This document shows positions 5,394 through 52,041 of a stretch of DNA of 60,083 bases, in pieces. The position numbers and the translations under genes are program-made. This stretch comes from a virus. Numbering within the stretch: position 1 is the first letter of the stretch; each line of letters starts with the position of its first letter. The notes under the pieces were generated by a model. That model had not been told where the DNA came from. It ran no database searches and saw only the letters and a list, made by a program, of their open reading frames with translations. The stretch lies in the IMG/VR virus record IMGVR_UViG_3300044630_003239, positions 1-60,083 of that record. One strand, given 5' to 3'.

Positions 5394-5422
5394 TTGACAC
5401 CCCTTCTAGGAACTGGTATACT
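5394..5422 (+). promoter_or_regulatory. Consensus promoter TTGACA-N17-TATACT
   Basis: Perfect -35 box at 5394-5399, 17-base spacer, TATACT at 5417-5422, upstream of the proteasome-like gene. Confidence 0.85.
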
Positions 5423-5452
5423 TAAATATACCTAATCTGGGAGGGGTTTGTC

Positions 5453-5977
5453 GTGACTTGCATTGTTGCTCTACGCCATGAAGAAAAAGTTTATATGGCA
5501 GGAGATCGTGGAGCATCAGATGACGGAGTTATTCTCTCACTTGAATCACCAAAGGTTTGGAAAGTTGGACCATACTTAATTGGTTATGCTGGGTCAATGG
5601 ACGGCGATAGAATCAGACACAACTTCAGACCATCAGCACCTAACATTAAAGATACAGACAAGTTTATGCACACAAAGTTTATCAAAGAACTTCGTGAATT
5701 TTATAATGAATTTTGGATTGATACATCTAAAGAAGGTGAACTTAGTTTAATCATTGGTATTCGTGGAGAAATTTACGAACATAGTTCTGGAGATATGTCT
5801 TTATCTAAATACTCTTTGCCATATATGTCTATTGGTTCTGGGTCAGAATATGCATATGGGGTTTTGTATGCAACAGATAAACAAAAAAATGCAAGGAACA
5901 GAGTAATTCAAGCAGTCAGTGCTGCAATTAAATTTAATCCATCGTGTATGGGTCCAGTTGACATCATAAGTGCCTAG
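5453..5977 (+). CDS. Proteasome beta-type / HslV-like Ntn hydrolase
   Basis: Begins MTCIVALRHEEKVYMAGDRG. After removal of Met the N-terminal Thr1 is followed by Asp17 and Lys33, the spacing of the catalytic triad of proteasome beta subunits and HslV. Residues about 128-135 (GSGSEYAYG) match the conserved GSG region. At 174 residues it is the size of HslV and has no propeptide, so only Met removal is needed for activity. GTG start with a GGGAGGGG SD. It could be a self-assembling protease or a peptidase acting on the host Pup-proteasome; no partner ATPase is seen. The fold is well supported, the substrate unknown. Confidence 0.85.
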   Translation: MTCIVALRHEEKVYMAGDRGASDDGVILSLESPKVWKVGPYLIGYAGSMDGDRIRHNFRPSAPNIKDTDKFMHTKFIKELREFYNEFWIDTSKEGELSLIIGIRGEIYEHSSGDMSLSKYSLPYMSIGSGSEYAYGVLYATDKQKNARNRVIQAVSAAIKFNPSCMGPVDIISA

Positions 5978-5986
5978 GAGTATACT
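5958..5986 (+). promoter_or_regulatory. Consensus promoter for a leaderless mRNA
   Basis: TTGACA at 5958-5963, 17-base spacer, TATACT at 5981-5986, then six bases to the ATG at 5993. It lies inside the end of the preceding gene. Confidence 0.85.
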
Positions 5987-5992
5987 TAATAT

Positions 5993-6214
5993 ATGAACGA
6001 AGAATTTGAAGAGATCCTAAAGGATATTCAGAATATAGAGTCAAACTTTGATGAGTTTGAAATCTGGCTTGAAAACGGAATTGAGCGGGGATGGGTAACT
6101 GAACCGTTCTGTAATACTCATGAGGGTGATCCCTATATGAATGAAGAAGAACAGAAAGAGTGGGAAGAGGGCGGAGACCCTTGCCAAGTAGTAATTAAAA
6201 TCAAAGAAAACTAA
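5993..6214 (+). CDS. Small acidic protein
   Basis: 73 residues, strongly acidic, with CNTHEGDPYMNEEEQKEW in the middle and a GGDPC motif near the end. Not recognised. No SD is present; the start codon lies six bases after a consensus -10 box, so translation is probably leaderless. It is followed at 13 bases by an exported protein gene. Confidence 0.7.
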   Translation: MNEEFEEILKDIQNIESNFDEFEIWLENGIERGWVTEPFCNTHEGDPYMNEEEQKEWEEGGDPCQVVIKIKEN

Positions 6215-7179: not shown

Positions 7180-7608
7180 ATGGTAGTAACACATGCAATG
7201 GATCTATTCAATGATCCTTTTTTTATTGGCTTTAACAGAGAGTTAAGCCGTTTGAATACAGCACATAAAACAAATTCACAATCATATCCTCCGTATGATC
7301 TTCTTAAACTAGATGAAGATACATACAGATTATCCATAGCAGTTGCTGGATTTTCTAATGAAAATATTAATGTTTCAGTAGACAATGGAACATTAATTAT
7401 TAAGGGTGAAATGGTGGAAGTAACAGATGCAGAAGTTGTTCATAAGGGTATTGCTGGTCGTAAATTTGTACGATCATTTGCTCTTGGAGAATATATGGAA
7501 GTAACTGGTGCAGAAATGAAGGACGGTATGCTACATATTAATGTAGATCGTATTATTCCTGAAGACAAAAAGCCAAAGACTATTGAAATCAAACTTGCTA
7601 AAAAGTAG
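7180..7608 (+). CDS. Small heat-shock protein (Hsp20 / alpha-crystallin)
   Basis: 142 residues. An alpha-crystallin domain spans about residues 36-138: YDLLKLDEDTYRLSIAVAGF, then the loop with NGTLIIKGE and the RKFVRSFALGEYMEV segment leading to MLHINVDRIIPE. The phage version keeps the IPE motif near the C-terminus. Such ATP-independent chaperones hold unfolded proteins and are also found in cyanophages. SD AAAGGGG. Confidence 0.92.
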   Translation: MVVTHAMDLFNDPFFIGFNRELSRLNTAHKTNSQSYPPYDLLKLDEDTYRLSIAVAGFSNENINVSVDNGTLIIKGEMVEVTDAEVVHKGIAGRKFVRSFALGEYMEVTGAEMKDGMLHINVDRIIPEDKKPKTIEIKLAKK

Positions 7609-7623
7609 TATATAGGCTATAAT
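7595..7623 (+). promoter_or_regulatory. Promoter TTGCTA-N17-TATAAT
   Basis: -35-like TTGCTA at 7595-7600, TATAAT at 7618-7623; leader of about 50 bases to the endolysin start with an AGGAGA SD. Confidence 0.6.
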
Positions 7624-7681
7624 TGTATAAGAGACCTAGGCATGTCTTTATAAACTGCCCCTTAATATTAGGAGATAAAAA

Positions 7682-8485
7682 ATGGCAGCAAAAGGTAGTC
7701 TAGAAGCAATCGTTGAGGTTGCAAAAAAAGAAGTTGGAACCATTGAAGGTCCAAAAGATAACGAAACAAAGTATGGTAAATGGACTGGAATGAACTTCCA
7801 ACCATGGTGCCAATCATTTGTTTCATGGTGTGCATTTACATCTGGCTTAGATGCAAAGAAGTATCCAAAGACTGCTTCAACAGTAGCAGCAGCAGATTGG
7901 TTTAAGAAGAATAATCGTTGGGCAGATGCTCGTAATGATGATCCAACTCCAGGAGACTGGATCTATTTTGATTTCCCAGAAGATGGTGTAAATCGTATTT
8001 CACATGTTGGTCTTTGCATTAAGAACAACGGAAACGGAACTATCCAAGTTATTGAAGGCAACACTTCAGGAACTGCAAAGGGAGACCAAAGAAATGGTGG
8101 AATGTGCGTAGAAAAGACTCGTGCATACGTTAAAGAAAATAAGTTAAAACTTATCAATGGAATTGTTGGTTGGGGTCGTCCAGTTTATGCTGGTGAAGAA
8201 AACCTTCCCCTTCTTTCTAAGGTTGGATCATCTGATGCTCCAGTTAAAAAATCTGCTCCAGCCTCTTCAACACCTGCAGCACCTGCAGTTAAGAAAGAGT
8301 TTAAGCAGTTTAAAGAAGGAGCAAAAGGTTCACCTGTTAAAAAGATTCAAGAAGCACTTGGCTTAAAGGCTGATGGAGTTTTTGGTCCAGGAACATCTAA
8401 AGCAGTTAAAGATTTTCAATCTAAGTCTAAACTTCCAGTAACTGGAATTGTAGATTTAAAAACATATAAGGCTATTTTGAAGTAA
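7682..8485 (+). CDS. Endolysin: CHAP-type amidase/peptidase plus peptidoglycan-binding domain
   Basis: 267 residues. Residues about 5-160 fit a CHAP-like cysteine peptidase: Cys43 in QPWCQSFVSWC, His108 in RISHVGLC, and the acid/amide pair in VIEGNTSG (Glu125, Asn127). A Pro/Ala/Ser linker (about 185-200) joins a peptidoglycan-binding domain (residues about 205-267, FKEGAKGSPVKKIQEALG and GVFGPGTSKAVKDFQ). No signal peptide, so release needs a holin; holin-like genes are at 14662-15541. The stop overlaps the start of the next gene by one base. Confidence 0.92.
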   Translation: MAAKGSLEAIVEVAKKEVGTIEGPKDNETKYGKWTGMNFQPWCQSFVSWCAFTSGLDAKKYPKTASTVAAADWFKKNNRWADARNDDPTPGDWIYFDFPEDGVNRISHVGLCIKNNGNGTIQVIEGNTSGTAKGDQRNGGMCVEKTRAYVKENKLKLINGIVGWGRPVYAGEENLPLLSKVGSSDAPVKKSAPASSTPAAPAVKKEFKQFKEGAKGSPVKKIQEALGLKADGVFGPGTSKAVKDFQSKSKLPVTGIVDLKTYKAILK

Positions 8486-24241: not shown

Positions 24242-24943
24242 TTATTCATATTCTTTACGTACCCAAAATGTTTTTTTATACCAGCCACTAAAAACAATTG
24301 ACGCTTTTTTTGAATGAGAATTTCCAATATCTACTAATCCATTTGTTTTTTTAGATTTCCAATTTTCTTGACGAAATGGAATTAGTTGTGCAATAGGCGT
24401 TCCTTGAGGAATCATACCTTCAAAGCCTTCTTTAATATAAAATGGAGGATTTCCATGAGCAGCCATAACTAATCCACCATCAATAATTCCAGTTATGGTT
24501 GTAAATGGCAAGTCATACCTATTAAGAGGGTGTGTAAATATAGCACTATATCCTTTTGGTAGGCTATATGCAACATTATAATCCCATGAAAATTCTTCTG
24601 GATAATGTCCTGCTGGAACTATATTTAGATCTGCTACATTTGTTCTTAATTTTGGAGGGTATTCAACACCAGGAGCCCAAATTAATTGTGGAGCACCGTT
24701 ATTATTTTTAATATAAACGTCATATGGCAATGTAATCATGTATCCAACCGTTAAAGAATCCATAAAAGGAATACATTGTTTAATTGTTGGATTAACTCCG
24801 TTTTGTATGTCAAAAAAAACACCATTTTTCCATCGTGGAATTTTTTTATACCAATCTGGTATAACTTTTTTTGATGGCACGATTGAGTCTTGATACTCTT
24901 TTATTGAAGATTCATATCTAAGTGTGGGAATTTTTTTAAACAT
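24242..24943 (-). CDS. Family A protein (paralogue 1), beta-rich, unknown
   Basis: 233 residues. Shares with the proteins at 41191, 50573 and 51316 the blocks IPDWYKK, IKQCIPFMDSLTVGYM, DVYIKNNNG, PKGYSAIFTHPLNRYDLPFTT, TGIID and FEGMIPQGTPIAQLIPFR. The order and the final G-T-P-x-A-Q strand suggest a cupin-like or DUF6065-like beta barrel. Function unknown. TACAAT six bases before the ATG points to a leaderless mRNA. It lies next to a tail-fibre cassette. Confidence 0.7.
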   Translation of the reverse strand: MFKKIPTLRYESSIKEYQDSIVPSKKVIPDWYKKIPRWKNGVFFDIQNGVNPTIKQCIPFMDSLTVGYMITLPYDVYIKNNNGAPQLIWAPGVEYPPKLRTNVADLNIVPAGHYPEEFSWDYNVAYSLPKGYSAIFTHPLNRYDLPFTTITGIIDGGLVMAAHGNPPFYIKEGFEGMIPQGTPIAQLIPFRQENWKSKKTNGLVDIGNSHSKKASIVFSGWYKKTFWVRKEYE

Positions 24944-41190: not shown

Positions 41191-41916
41191 GTGGGGTATA
41201 TGAATAAAAAAATTGAGTTTTGGGCAACTAGCAAAATGATGTATGATATTGCACCAAAGCCAGAACCTGCCTCTAAACATATTCCTGAGTGGTGGAAAGA
41301 TGCAGATCCATATATGCGTAGTCTTAAAAATCCTGACGGAAAAACTTTAGTTATAGAAAATAATAACTCAAATGCATCATTTAAAAAATGTAGACCAATG
41401 CTAGATACATTAACCTTTGGATACATTCTTCCACTATGGTCTGACGTTCTTGTTACAAATAATGATGGTCAAATATCTATTGACTGGAGAGTTTCTTATC
41501 CAGTATTTGAAGATCATAATGGACAAGAGGTTGAGGTTCCAGATGGGTATAGTAAAAACCTACAACTAAAATATAGAAACCCATGGGTTCCAAAATTACC
41601 AAAGGGTTATTCACTTCTTGTTATTCCACCAGCGGGGTATCCAAATCCAGTATTTAAACCAATTTGGGGAATTATTGATTATGACAACTCTAAGCATCCA
41701 CTGCTTCCACCAGTCTTTGTAAAAGAAGGCTTTAGTGGTATCGTAGAAAAAGGGACTCCAATTGCACAGATAGTTCCTTTTAAAAGAGATAACTGGCAAT
41801 CTTCTTTTAATTATTATGATCAAGAAGAGTTTTTTGCAATATTAAATAAAGAAAGTTTTTCAACAATTGCAAATAATTATGTTAAAAATATATGGACAAA
41901 CAAAAGTTTTAAATAA
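41191..41916 (+). CDS. Family A protein (paralogue 2)
   Basis: 241 residues. HIPEWWKDAD, FKKCRPMLDTLTFGYI, DVLVTNNDG, PKGYSLLVIPPAGYP, WGIIDYDN and FSGIVEKGTPIAQIVPFKRDNW align with the other three family A members. Beta-rich; predicted single-domain barrel. Unknown function. Ends one base before the convergent family B gene. Confidence 0.7.
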   Translation: MGYMNKKIEFWATSKMMYDIAPKPEPASKHIPEWWKDADPYMRSLKNPDGKTLVIENNNSNASFKKCRPMLDTLTFGYILPLWSDVLVTNNDGQISIDWRVSYPVFEDHNGQEVEVPDGYSKNLQLKYRNPWVPKLPKGYSLLVIPPAGYPNPVFKPIWGIIDYDNSKHPLLPPVFVKEGFSGIVEKGTPIAQIVPFKRDNWQSSFNYYDQEEFFAILNKESFSTIANNYVKNIWTNKSFK

Positions 41917-43002: not shown

Positions 43003-44589
43003 TTATTTATTATGTATATTTTCTTTAAGCCATTGATACATTGTTGGAGAAGCATCTGCCTCTTCCTGCCAAATTTTTCTATTAATTTCCCACTGTTTCA
43101 ATGTTGGCTCAACAAAATAATAGTAATCAATTCCATCTCTATGAATCCATCTTTCAATATCTATAGAATTTACTGGCATATAATTCATTCCAGTTGCAAT
43201 ACAGTGAATTCCAGAGTAACCATTATGTTTTTGTGTATTAAATTGAATATCTGCTAGATCTTGAAATCCTGGAACCATTGATGGCTCTAATAAAGGAACA
43301 TTAGGCTGATAAGTTTTTTTTGTTATATCACGCCAATATTCTGTATCGGTTCTATTAGAAAGTGCATAATGCTGTGCAACAAATTCCCTAAATGTAAAAT
43401 ACTGTCTACTTGTATTCATGTTATAAGCATCTCTATCCCACTGAGTTACTGTTTTACGCTGTAAAGTTTTTACTAGTTTATCTAAAAATTCATGAACCGT
43501 AAATAAACCATTAGATTCTAAAGGCTCAATAAATCCAGCCGCAAATCCAATAGCAACAACATTTTTTACAAATGTGCGTTCATGGATTCCTACCCTAAAC
43601 TTAATATACTTATAATCAAAAGATTCTACATCACGATCTGGATTATGAATAGTCATCTTATCTGAGCGAAGGTGATCCTTAAACTCTTTTAGTGCATCTT
43701 CTTTAGAAATATATTTATCGCTAAATACGTATCCTGTTCCAATTCGTTCCCAAGATGGAATATTCCATACCCATCCATGCCCAATGGCAGTACAGTTAGT
43801 ATAAGGTTCCATTTCTTTTTCTTTGTCTGTGTAAGGTATACGTGTAGCCCATGCGCTATTGTTTGGAAGCATATGACTTTGGTCATTCCAAGGCTCTTTC
43901 AATGCTCCTTCAAGTAGCATAGATTTAAATCCAGTACAGTCAATAAATAGATCTGATGTAATAACTGTTCCATCTGTCAAGACTAGAGATTCAATACCTT
44001 CATCATTTGTATTTACTGTTTCTACTGTTTGAGGAATTACTATTACTCCACGAGGAATACAGTAGTTATTTTTTAGCCATTGTCCAAACTTTGTGGCATC
44101 GAAATGATAGGCTACATCTTTTTTAAAATTAAAGTTGCCCAATTTCCCAGATTTATTCCAAGATAGTTTATTTTGTTCTGCTAAAGTTAAAGCAGGGAAA
44201 AAGGTTCTAGCATAATCTGCAACATCCAGATCTGGTGATTTAACTTTTTTAAAATACCAGTCAGTTAATCCATTAAGAGTTCCTTCTAAAAAGGGATTTC
44301 CAAATGGATAATGAAAACCTCCAGAATCTTTTTTATAAAAATCTGTAAACTTAATAGACATCTTGTATATAGCATCTGTTGCTGGCATAAAGTCTTTTTC
44401 GTCAATGCCAATCCAATTAGCCCATCCAGTGATCCCTCCAAGAGTTGATTCACCAACACCCACAATAGGGTAATCTGGAGACTCAATTACAATAATTTCT
44501 TTATCTGGAAAGGCTTTTATCATTGTTGCTGCAGACATCCAGCCAGCAGATCCACCACCTACTATAACAATTTTGTTTACATTTATCAT
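43003..44589 (-). CDS. Flavin-dependent tryptophan-halogenase-type enzyme
   Basis: 528 residues, full length for the family. FAD motif GGGSAGW (11-17), catalytic Lys80 (SIKFTDF; Lys79 in PrnA/RebH), W-V-W-N-I-P at 273-278 (the W-x-W-x-I-P halogenase signature that blocks monooxygenation) and Glu358 in EPLESNG, matching the second catalytic residue. It should make hypohalous acid from FADH2, O2 and chloride or bromide, with Lys80 positioning the halogen. A viral enzyme of this class (VirX1) is known from a cyanophage. Substrate unknown; no reductase is seen here, so FADH2 must come from the host. An overlapping four-codon leader peptide precedes it. Confidence 0.93.
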   Translation of the reverse strand: MINVNKIVIVGGGSAGWMSAATMIKAFPDKEIIVIESPDYPIVGVGESTLGGITGWANWIGIDEKDFMPATDAIYKMSIKFTDFYKKDSGGFHYPFGNPFLEGTLNGLTDWYFKKVKSPDLDVADYARTFFPALTLAEQNKLSWNKSGKLGNFNFKKDVAYHFDATKFGQWLKNNYCIPRGVIVIPQTVETVNTNDEGIESLVLTDGTVITSDLFIDCTGFKSMLLEGALKEPWNDQSHMLPNNSAWATRIPYTDKEKEMEPYTNCTAIGHGWVWNIPSWERIGTGYVFSDKYISKEDALKEFKDHLRSDKMTIHNPDRDVESFDYKYIKFRVGIHERTFVKNVVAIGFAAGFIEPLESNGLFTVHEFLDKLVKTLQRKTVTQWDRDAYNMNTSRQYFTFREFVAQHYALSNRTDTEYWRDITKKTYQPNVPLLEPSMVPGFQDLADIQFNTQKHNGYSGIHCIATGMNYMPVNSIDIERWIHRDGIDYYYFVEPTLKQWEINRKIWQEEADASPTMYQWLKENIHNK

Positions 44590-46510: not shown

Positions 46511-47248
46511 ATGGCAACTAACATGGAACCACCTCAACCATTAAAGAAAAAAAACTATTTAGACGCTGTAAAGTCTACTACTCCACAAGAACTAAATAAG
46601 CAGTATATTGCCGTACCTGGTCTTCAGGGTGAAACTGGCCTTCAAGGACCTAAAGGAGATAAGGGTGACAAGGGTGATCAGGGACCACAGGGACCAAAAG
46701 GTGATCAAGGTAAGACTGGTCCCCAGGGAGAGCGTGGAGAGCCTGGTAAGGGCGGAGAAGGCTATGACTCGCCATCTGGACAGTATCCAGGTTGGGCATA
46801 TTACCAAAACAAAATAGATAAGCCAACTCTTTTAGGACCCCAAAGAGGAGATGATGGATGGGTATCTCTTAATTTTTATGCAGATCTTGAGTCATCTAAT
46901 GAAGAGTATATTATAAAAAATACAAACCAACTTTGGTTATCCGATATGAACATTTTTAATTTTAAGGCATTAAGGCTAGGTGCTAAGGTTGATATAAGAT
47001 ATGATTTTACAATAACTACTGAGTCAAACTATACAGAGTTATGGCTTAGAACATTTAATGAAAAATATTTTAAGTCCCCAACATCTTATGTAGCAAACCT
47101 TAAATACCAGTATTCTTACGATATGTCATTTTTTCAAACATTGTATATTGATGACCAAAGAATTAAATCCTATGGGGCAAGACCTCAAGCAAGAACAGAC
47201 TCAGAAAGTAACTTGCTATTAAAAGGCATCTATATTTCAGTTTGTTAA
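46511..47248 (+). CDS. Collagen-like tail-fibre protein
   Basis: 245 residues. About residues 37-84 are 15-16 Gly-x-y triplets (GLQGETGLQGPKGDKGDKG and so on), a phage-type collagen helix that trimerises fibres; the C-terminal 150 residues form a beta-rich tip. Start chosen at the first ATG. Confidence 0.85.
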   Translation: MATNMEPPQPLKKKNYLDAVKSTTPQELNKQYIAVPGLQGETGLQGPKGDKGDKGDQGPQGPKGDQGKTGPQGERGEPGKGGEGYDSPSGQYPGWAYYQNKIDKPTLLGPQRGDDGWVSLNFYADLESSNEEYIIKNTNQLWLSDMNIFNFKALRLGAKVDIRYDFTITTESNYTELWLRTFNEKYFKSPTSYVANLKYQYSYDMSFFQTLYIDDQRIKSYGARPQARTDSESNLLLKGIYISVC

Positions 47249-50572: not shown

Positions 50573-51316
50573 TTAATTAAAGGTTTTTTTGTTCCAAAAT
50601 TGATTTTTATATGATGCTATAATTTTTGATCTAAGTAAACTCATAGCCTCAACAGGATCAAAACCTTCTCCAGAATTATCTATTTCTGATAACCACTCAT
50701 CTCTTTTAAAAGGTATAACTTGAATCATTGGAGTTCCTTTTTCAATTATACCCTGAAAGTTCTTTTTCATTAAAAATGGAAAATGTACAACGCCAGGATA
50801 TGTATCTGTGTCTACGACCCCTGGAAGACAATAAAACGGAAGATCATGATGAAGTGGTGTTATAAATAAAGAACTATACCCTTTTGGTGTTTGTATAAAA
50901 TATGGATTAATCCATTTATAAGCAAATTTATGAAATTCATCAGCAATAGGTAAAATAGGCATTTGTTGTTCATGATGTGCAGTAACTAAATTTGCATCTT
51001 CAAGAACCCAATTTAAAAATTTTTCACCTGTTTCTTCAATATTTTTTACTTGAATATCAGATATAGTAGGAATGATATATCCCATAGACATTGAATCTCT
51101 TAGTGGTACACATTTTTTTATTGTAAGATTTATTTGTTTCGTTTTATAATGAGGATCATCATATGGTGTTAAGATTGGCATATTTGGTGTATTTCCATTC
51201 CAAGTAGATGGTGTATTTTTAAACCATTCAGGTAACATTTTTATTGCAGATACAGGTGTTGGAGCAATATATTTATATTTTTTTTCAGAAAGTGTAAATT
51301 TAATTTTTTTACTCAT
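50573..51316 (-). CDS. Family A protein (paralogue 3)
   Basis: 247 residues. MLPEWFKNTP, IKKCVPLRDSMSMGYI, PKGYSSLFITPLHHDLPFYCLPGVVDTD and FQGIIEKGTPMIQVIPFKRDEW. Tandem with paralogue 4. Unknown. Confidence 0.7.
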   Translation of the reverse strand: MSKKIKFTLSEKKYKYIAPTPVSAIKMLPEWFKNTPSTWNGNTPNMPILTPYDDPHYKTKQINLTIKKCVPLRDSMSMGYIIPTISDIQVKNIEETGEKFLNWVLEDANLVTAHHEQQMPILPIADEFHKFAYKWINPYFIQTPKGYSSLFITPLHHDLPFYCLPGVVDTDTYPGVVHFPFLMKKNFQGIIEKGTPMIQVIPFKRDEWLSEIDNSGEGFDPVEAMSLLRSKIIASYKNQFWNKKTFN

Positions 51317-52041
51317 TATTCAAAACTCTTTCTTTGCCAAAAGTTATTTTTATAAAATCCAGTATAAAAACTTCTTGCCTGCCATCTTATTTTTTTTGTA
51401 TTTTTTTCTAAATCTATATCCATTACTGATTTCCAATTATCTCTCTTAATCAATACTAGTTGAGCATAAGGAGTTCCAGCAGGAATAATACCTTCAAAAT
51501 TATTTTTTAAAAAAAATGGAACAAAACCACCAGATGAATATTTGTCAGTATCTATGATTCCAGATGTAGTTGTAAAAGGAAGATCAAATCTGTTTAAAGG
51601 ATGTGTTAGTAAACAACTATACCCATCTGGTGTTTTAAACCCAAATGGAATCTGCCAGGCAAAATGATTATTATGGTGTCCAGAAGGCCTTGGAATAAGA
51701 GAACCTACCTTGCCAAATCTTTCAGTAATTGGAGATGGCGTTCCACCCCAAGATATTGTTGGTAAACCATTTTCATTAATTTCAACAATTAAATCCATTG
51801 CAGTTTCAAACATATATCCATGAGTTAAACTATCTAAAAATGGAATGCATCTTTTTAAACCAACATTTGCAATTCCAAGTTCTCCATTAGAACGAAAATG
51901 CGGATAGTCTTTGTCATCAGAATACAATTCAGAATCTTTATACCATTTAGGGATATAAAATTTTGATGATTTTGGTTTATCTAAAAATTCAACATTTGTG
52001 AGTGCATCTTCTCTAAAAAATTTTATTGTCTTTTTTTTCAT
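51316..52041 (-). CDS. Family A protein (paralogue 4)
   Basis: 241 residues. IPKWYKDSE, LKRCIPFLDSLTHGYMF, PDGYSCLLTHPLNRFDLPFTTTSGIIDTD and FEGIIPAGTPYAQLVLIKRDNW; closest to paralogue 1. A five-codon leaderless mini-ORF overlaps its start. Confidence 0.7.
   Translation of the reverse strand: MKKKTIKFFREDALTNVEFLDKPKSSKFYIPKWYKDSELYSDDKDYPHFRSNGELGIANVGLKRCIPFLDSLTHGYMFETAMDLIVEINENGLPTISWGGTPSPITERFGKVGSLIPRPSGHHNNHFAWQIPFGFKTPDGYSCLLTHPLNRFDLPFTTTSGIIDTDKYSSGGFVPFFLKNNFEGIIPAGTPYAQLVLIKRDNWKSVMDIDLEKNTKKIRWQARSFYTGFYKNNFWQRKSFE

Follow-up and report, generated by a model that had tools for sequence, protein, structure and literature searches.

The DNA analysed here, called the window, is a virus record of 60,083 bases and is a fragment. 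It carries a gene for a proteasome-like Ntn hydrolase (the Ntn gene), followed by the gene of a small acidic protein, and a candidate promoter is found for each of the two genes (Table 1). The promoter of the Ntn gene lies within an inverted repeat which, in RNA reading in from the upstream genes, is predicted to fold into a hairpin that includes the Shine-Dalgarno sequence.

Table 1. Features at the proteasome-like locus of the window
Feature	Position	Strand	Description and basis
Predicted promoter of the Ntn gene	5394..5422	+	Consensus sigma-70-like, TTGACA-N17-TATACT, with TG before the -10; pattern search
Predicted hairpin of read-through RNA	5396..5452	+	Shine-Dalgarno paired with the -35/spacer; inner stem 5415-5420/5427-5432; RNA folding and co-variation
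Shine-Dalgarno, GGGAGGGG	5439..5446	+	Within the hairpin's 3' arm; window sequence
Proteasome-like Ntn hydrolase gene	5453..5977	+	GTG start, TAG stop, 174 aa; ORF, profile and model evidence
Predicted second promoter	5958..5986	+	Consensus, overlapping the 3' end of the Ntn gene; pattern search
Small acidic protein gene	5993..6214	+	73 aa, next to the Ntn gene; ORF comparison

Once Met1 is removed, Thr1, Asp17 and Lys33 of the Ntn protein are encoded by 5456-5458, 5504-5506 and 5552-5554. An in-frame TAA at 5423-5425, nine codons before the start, with no ATG, GTG or TTG from there to 5453, excludes a propeptide in the window, and the earlier note was right to state that there is none. The opposite strand of the gene, read as the reverse complement in one frame, has many stops. 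A scan of IMG/VR found 433 stretches that encode relatives, and the best 80, which are 82-100% identical, were kept. These 80 loci encode 45 distinct proteins, each of 174 aa; an in-frame upstream alternative start is absent in 67 of the loci, and a possible one lies 13-24 codons upstream in 13. The Ntn gene is a real gene under strong purifying selection, with a median dN/dS of about 0.10 (1638 pairs, from 58 distinct coding sequences among the 81 taken, window included).

The Pfam Proteasome profile PF00227 matches the protein with 29.8 bits, above its curated cut-off of 22.4, and PHROG 1040, the ‘peptidase HslV family’, matches over the full length (E 9.7e-21). The scores against the NCBIfam models of bacterial PrcB, the 20S beta subunit (TIGR03690, 24.4 of 191.9 bits), and of HslV (TIGR03692, 21.6 of 157.75 bits) stay below their cut-offs. 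When the family profile is compared with PDB chains, BPH is the best match (E 4.3e-15), with HslV at 1.7e-12. Thr1, Asp17 and Lys33 are invariant in all 60 distinct mature family proteins, including those from loci selected by terminase, and in all 40 rows of an alignment (A2) made up of 19 rows from the window group, 11 from bacterial loci and 10 of the E7 type, in which the bacterial and other phage relatives have 26-31% identity. With positions matched through the alignment to BPH, the equivalent of Ser129 is Ser in 19 of 19 group rows, while the Asp166 position is occupied by Asn or Ser and the Ser169 position by Cys, so that the second proteasome network, Ser129/Asp166/Ser169, is kept only in part as judged from the alignment. 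The active site had been said to match that of proteasome beta subunits: this holds for Thr1, Asp17 and Lys33 and does not extend to Asp166 and Ser169. Since HslV in the same alignment of PDB chains likewise lacks the Asp, its loss does not exclude the protein from the wider proteasome-like family. In the available part of a study of the yeast enzyme, the D166N change lowers activity (PMC4792962).

The AlphaFold2 monomer model, computed on the same 40-row alignment, has a mean pLDDT of 92.1 and a pTM of 0.89, with helices at 50-57, 68-86, 131-140 and 147-161 and a final strand at 170-173. BPH is the top fold match, with a Z of 20.4 over 165 residues at 2.4 Å (Foldseek, VIA). HslV is tied with it at a Z of 20.3, and proteasome beta subunits come next, that of M. 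tuberculosis with a Z of 18.9. Among viral models other phage proteins match best, the one from Gordonia phage Daredevil with an E of 9e-11. The predicted fold is that of a proteasome beta-type Ntn hydrolase, nearest to BPH and HslV; a structure unlike Ntn hydrolases, the outcome named beforehand as speaking against the assignment, did not appear in the prediction. The modelled protein is well supported as a conserved Ntn hydrolase of the proteasome-like kind, encoded by an actinophage, and it is probably active.

In a midpoint-rooted tree, in which some long branches are flagged, the window group forms a clade of its own (100/100), which joins bacterial proteins of the MTCIVGL type and other phages (98/96). 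The 98/96 set does not include the proteins of the E7 type, of DSL-LC01 and of Pumpernickel, so that there seem to be at least two separate enzyme lines in actinophages. The nearest homologs in named phages are 25-36% identical to the window protein, and a scan with a Vibrio phage homolog gave no match. A scan of bacterial genome contigs for chromosomal relatives returned 16 loci, none of them titled Actinobacteria, and these bacterial relatives may be AAH.

The phage that carries the window can be placed by its other genes. WhiB scores over its cut-off in nine of nine group records, in comparison to 1 of 14 control genomes (Corynebacterium only), and the terminase of the window is nearest (45%) to those of large Streptomyces phages; because of WhiB and this terminase affinity, the host is taken to be an actinobacterium. 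The virus record, the terminase and WhiB together bear out the earlier description of the protease gene as phage-coded. Among 80 loci fetched by terminase, the Ntn gene is present in 18 of the 18 with at least 8 kb downstream (49-98% identical) and in 20 of the 21 with at least 6.5 kb downstream. With all 18 having it, the Ntn gene is a core gene of this WhiB-bearing actinophage group.

The position of the gene bears on the reading that the Ntn protein is the head-maturation protease of the phage. In G008, a relative of 118.8 kb, it lies between the terminase and endolysin genes, about 40 kb from the portal and capsid genes, and a separate S78 protease gene sits between portal and major capsid gene. 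An S78 protease is found over cut-off in all eight long relatives; the window itself, as a fragment, has no match. The support for the head-protease reading comes from the E7 type, freshwater actinophages of about 39 kb, where, in 71 of the 72 loci that extend 900 bp or more upstream, the homolog comes immediately after the portal gene, and where a search for an S78 protease found none in six genomes. In these phages the homolog sits in the usual slot of the head protease (in Planktophila phage E7 at 7500-8036 of locus L190, and also in loci L197-L276). The E7 capsid, however, matches Phage_capsid_3, and capsids of this type may need no protease. The head-maturation role was rejected for the window group on the distance and the S78 genes, and it is very improbable as an account of the protein.

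The second question raised by genome content is that of a partner ATPase. In the nine group records, which are the window and eight relatives of 98-119 kb and may be incomplete, the profiles AAA_2 (PF07724, which also serves to look for the partner HslU) and AAA give no match over cut-off (0/9). The same AAA+ search matched 14 of 14 control genomes, and weak matches to PF00004 below the cut-off, of at most 16.8 bits, occur in seven of the nine group records. The remark in the earlier note that the partner ATPase is unknown can thus be sharpened to the absence of AAA_2/AAA matches over cut-off in the window and its eight relatives. This absence would also suit a protein that works with an AAA+ unfoldase of the host (ClpX, ClpC or Mpa/ARC), or that inserts into or disturbs the proteasome ring of the host, and the fold match to the M. 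tuberculosis beta subunit points the same way. Scores so far below the PrcB and HslV cut-offs argue against such a host partnership, which is improbable. The competition with a Pup-proteasome that the earlier note considered gained no support here, the host being placed only as an actinobacterium. A search outside subscription journals found no literature on a proteasome in Nanopelagicales.

The small acidic gene follows the Ntn gene in 79 of the best 80 of the 433 loci (59-73 aa, some cut by contig ends), with a gap of 15 bp in 73 loci and of 602-860 bp in six; the single locus without it, L060, stops about 80 bp past the Ntn gene. There is one copy in the window and one in G008. A search for the gene found none in E7 or in those stretches of DSL-LC01 and Pumpernickel that were retrieved. 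The protein matches nothing in Pfam or PHROG, and its structure prediction gave no confident model (pLDDT 62.6). In phages, tblastn gave no match at 0.01; the only hits, in Mycobacterium phage Aminay (two records, E 9), are taken as chance. Pup, which ends in Gly-Gly-Gln/Glu, was considered for this small and acidic protein and rejected, the sequences from these loci being without that end.

This near-constant neighbour gives some weight to the idea that the Ntn protein is a peptidase with a single substrate, for example the acidic protein, or otherwise a specific amidase or ligase of the connectase kind. The altered positions of the second triad fit such a specialised activity, and the available text of PMC8665760 notes that being proteasome-like does not imply proteolysis. 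Against it, the acidic gene has its own predicted promoter and is not always adjacent, and the model includes both H1 and H2, while its strands 3 and 4 have no insertion of the connectase type between them. A role of this sort is rather improbable, and a general peptidase of the BPH/HslV type is preferred.

The predicted RNA start of the second promoter coincides with the ATG of the acidic gene, so that its message would be leaderless. Promoters of the form TTGACA-N16-18-TATAAT/TATACT end 6-7 nt before an ATG at 5958-5993, 12271, 14627, 24215 (-) and 25482 (-), an arrangement that suggests leaderless mRNAs. Elsewhere in the window, a small heat-shock protein, Hsp20, is encoded at 7180-7608 (+), 1.2 kb past the Ntn gene (PHROG 432, E 1.2e-37); such a gene is near the Ntn gene in only 17 of the 72 loci with room for it. 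Four ORFs of about 230-250 aa look by eye like copies of one another (24242-24943 (-), 41191-41916 (+), 50573-51316 (-) and 51316-52041 (-)), the last two side by side. The ORF at 46511-47248 (+), with tail-region genes around it, has what looks by eye like a collagen-like Gly-X-Y stretch. A 528-aa ORF at 43003-44589 (-) presumably resembles tryptophan halogenase. A homolog of tryptophan 7-halogenase has been reported for the lake actinophage DSL-LC01 in the available part of PMC10611076.

The distinctive feature of the locus is the leader of the Ntn gene. The exact promoter pattern occurs three times in the 60-kb window, where 0.05 are expected, and two of the three are at the Ntn gene and its neighbour. 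A looser pattern is present at 76 of the 77 loci that have 100 bp or more upstream (among the best 80 of 433), compared with 592 of 16,000 random control windows. The 71-nt leader RNA folds with -27.6 kcal/mol (z -4.33), and one of 200 shuffles is equally good, whereas RNA that begins at the predicted start, near 5429, has no such fold (z +1.36). Among 100 start regions compared in the window, and among 164 in G008, that of the Ntn gene folds most stably. The computed probability that the Shine-Dalgarno is unpaired is 0.02 in the read-through RNA and 0.45 in RNA from the predicted start, and it is greater from the promoter start in 45 of 45 leaders. Among the 46 distinct leaders of the best 80 of 433 loci, the Shine-Dalgarno pairs with the 5' arm in 44.

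The two arms of the hairpin differ among clades yet change together. When arms are swapped between leaders, the native combination pairs better in 1145 of 1392 cases and worse in 153, with 94 ties, although the swaps are not independent because many leaders are nearly identical. Double compensatory changes are found at six of 14 consensus pairs, together with G-U changes, in 17 leaders picked by hand for variety from the 46 distinct leaders and 21 distinct terminase-selected ones, a set that leaves out the armless L005, L067, L076, L345 and L352. The pairs were counted on this set and not on a MAFFT alignment of the 46 leaders (A3), because the arms are misplaced there, the spacers being 17 or 18 bp. 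The hairpin is not universal: its 5' arm is absent from the L005 type (three of the 80 leaders, best 80 of 433) and from L067, the folds of the 21 distinct terminase-selected leaders, read by eye, show no hairpin in three (L345, L352 and L324), and the leaders of L056, L069 and L076 fold weakly. The leaders of E7 and L209, when folded, gave no hairpin of the window type.

Based on folding and co-variation, the arrangement known from T4 gene e is found in the window leader, which looks like a translational lock. What is new, as far as sequence can tell, is a promoter inside a hairpin that would bury the Shine-Dalgarno in read-through RNA and not in RNA started at that promoter. The same inverted repeat might instead serve as an operator in the DNA or as a weak terminator, since it overlaps the promoter and TTT or TTTT follows the 3' arm. 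The T run is short, though, the G-U and double pair changes favour pairing in RNA, and the cover over the Shine-Dalgarno is kept in nearly all distinct leaders. An operator or terminator is unlikely, if well worth weighing, and the translational lock is the preferred reading of the repeat.

On balance we favour an account in which a BPH/HslV-type peptidase, with no unfoldase from the phage, is made in a set time window under the control of a hairpin-locked leader. The gene product would be a compact Ntn hydrolase of the proteasome-like group I. Judging by the sequence of its N-terminus, the methionine aminopeptidase of the host would expose Thr1, so that autoprocessing would be unnecessary. 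The subunits, by analogy with the fold of BPH and HslV, most likely form a single or double ring that encloses the active sites. Such a particle would cut peptides that are loose or unfolded and need no dedicated unfoldase from the phage, as the lack of an unfoldase gene suggests. A host-type promoter of its own would drive the Ntn gene. In transcripts that enter from the upstream genes the hairpin would fold and hide the Shine-Dalgarno from translation, while RNA started at the promoter, being without the 5' arm, should be translatable. With such a hairpin lock the enzyme would be made in a set window of infection and be absent from late read-through messages. As the promoter is sigma-70-like, the simplest timing would be early, with silence on late read-through, and the simplest guess for the target is the clearing of host or early phage proteins.

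The enzyme is of a known kind, represented by PHROG 1040 and by the group I homologs that Fuchs et al. described (2021; PMC8665760, available text), and two further actinophage records contain annotated homologs. Proteasome-like genes are also carried by Planktophila phages E7 and F5, Actinomycetia phage DSL-LC01 and Microbacterium phage Pumpernickel (gp135), and two of the homologs in named actinophages are annotated as protease or HslV. The novelty implied by the earlier note is reduced accordingly, as phage-encoded members of this kind had already been annotated and described. Within titles and abstracts outside subscription journals, no discussion of the window gene group was found beyond the cited papers. 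The enzyme alone is an ordinary further member of its family, and the window group adds a new branch to this known kind, one that has a lock-like leader. In the available text of Fuchs et al. (2021), phage proteasome homologs come without a context that suggests their function (PMC8665760). The proteasome-like gene of the window is a near-invariant core gene of one actinophage group, and the predicted control of its expression is its own, conserved and co-varying; the timing, the neighbour gene and a lock that a reporter could break are handles on a functionally open group.

Each of the known relatives has its own points of likeness and difference. Members of PHROG 1040 likewise have Thr1, Asp17 and Lys33 in a single compact domain with no propeptide. 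BPH (PDB 5ovs, 5ovt and 5ovu), a tetradecameric double ring, is the best match in both fold and profile; it binds epoxomicin covalently and has no known partner unfoldase, according to the part of PMC5777263 available. It shares 17-24% identity with the phage protein, and its residues 166/169 are Asp/Ser where the phage protein has Asn/Ser and Cys. HslV has the same compact fold without a C-terminal extension; the phage protein differs in lacking a propeptide, and no HslU-like gene was found in the group records (0/9), which may be incomplete. From 20S beta subunits (PrcB) it differs in having no propeptide and an incomplete second network, and individual 20S subunits are described in the accessible part of PMC8665760 as inactive unless assembled, so that the view of the earlier note, that the protease is ready to act, gains no support. 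Like AAH and PPH, which Fuchs, Alva and Lupas (2021) described, the window protein belongs to group I, is phage-borne and has neither a propeptide nor a linked AAA+ (PMC8665760, available text). PPH, as described there, has about 140 residues and no H2, whereas the window protein has 174 residues and H2 at 68-86; since H1 and H2 are both present, the description of PPH does not fit. AAH, in the same available text, was not found in phages specific to Actinobacteria.

For the leader, the closest parallel is T4 gene e, the lysozyme gene, where a promoter lies within the region of a hairpin and only the longer transcripts have their ribosome site hidden by it. As set out in the available part of PMC3014915, the inhibitory structure arises in the longer early transcripts and is missing from the promoter-proximal ones. 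One speculative way to join lock and enzyme is a mirror image of that switch, in which an early promoter of host type would let the protease be made early only, the hairpin would silence it on late read-through RNA, and a self-assembling, ATP-independent enzyme would remodel the proteome of the actinobacterial host as infection begins and spare the later virion proteins. The promoters of T4 gene e are T4 late promoters and it is early read-through that is silenced, whereas the promoter in the window is sigma-70-like and the gene that it precedes encodes a protease homolog.
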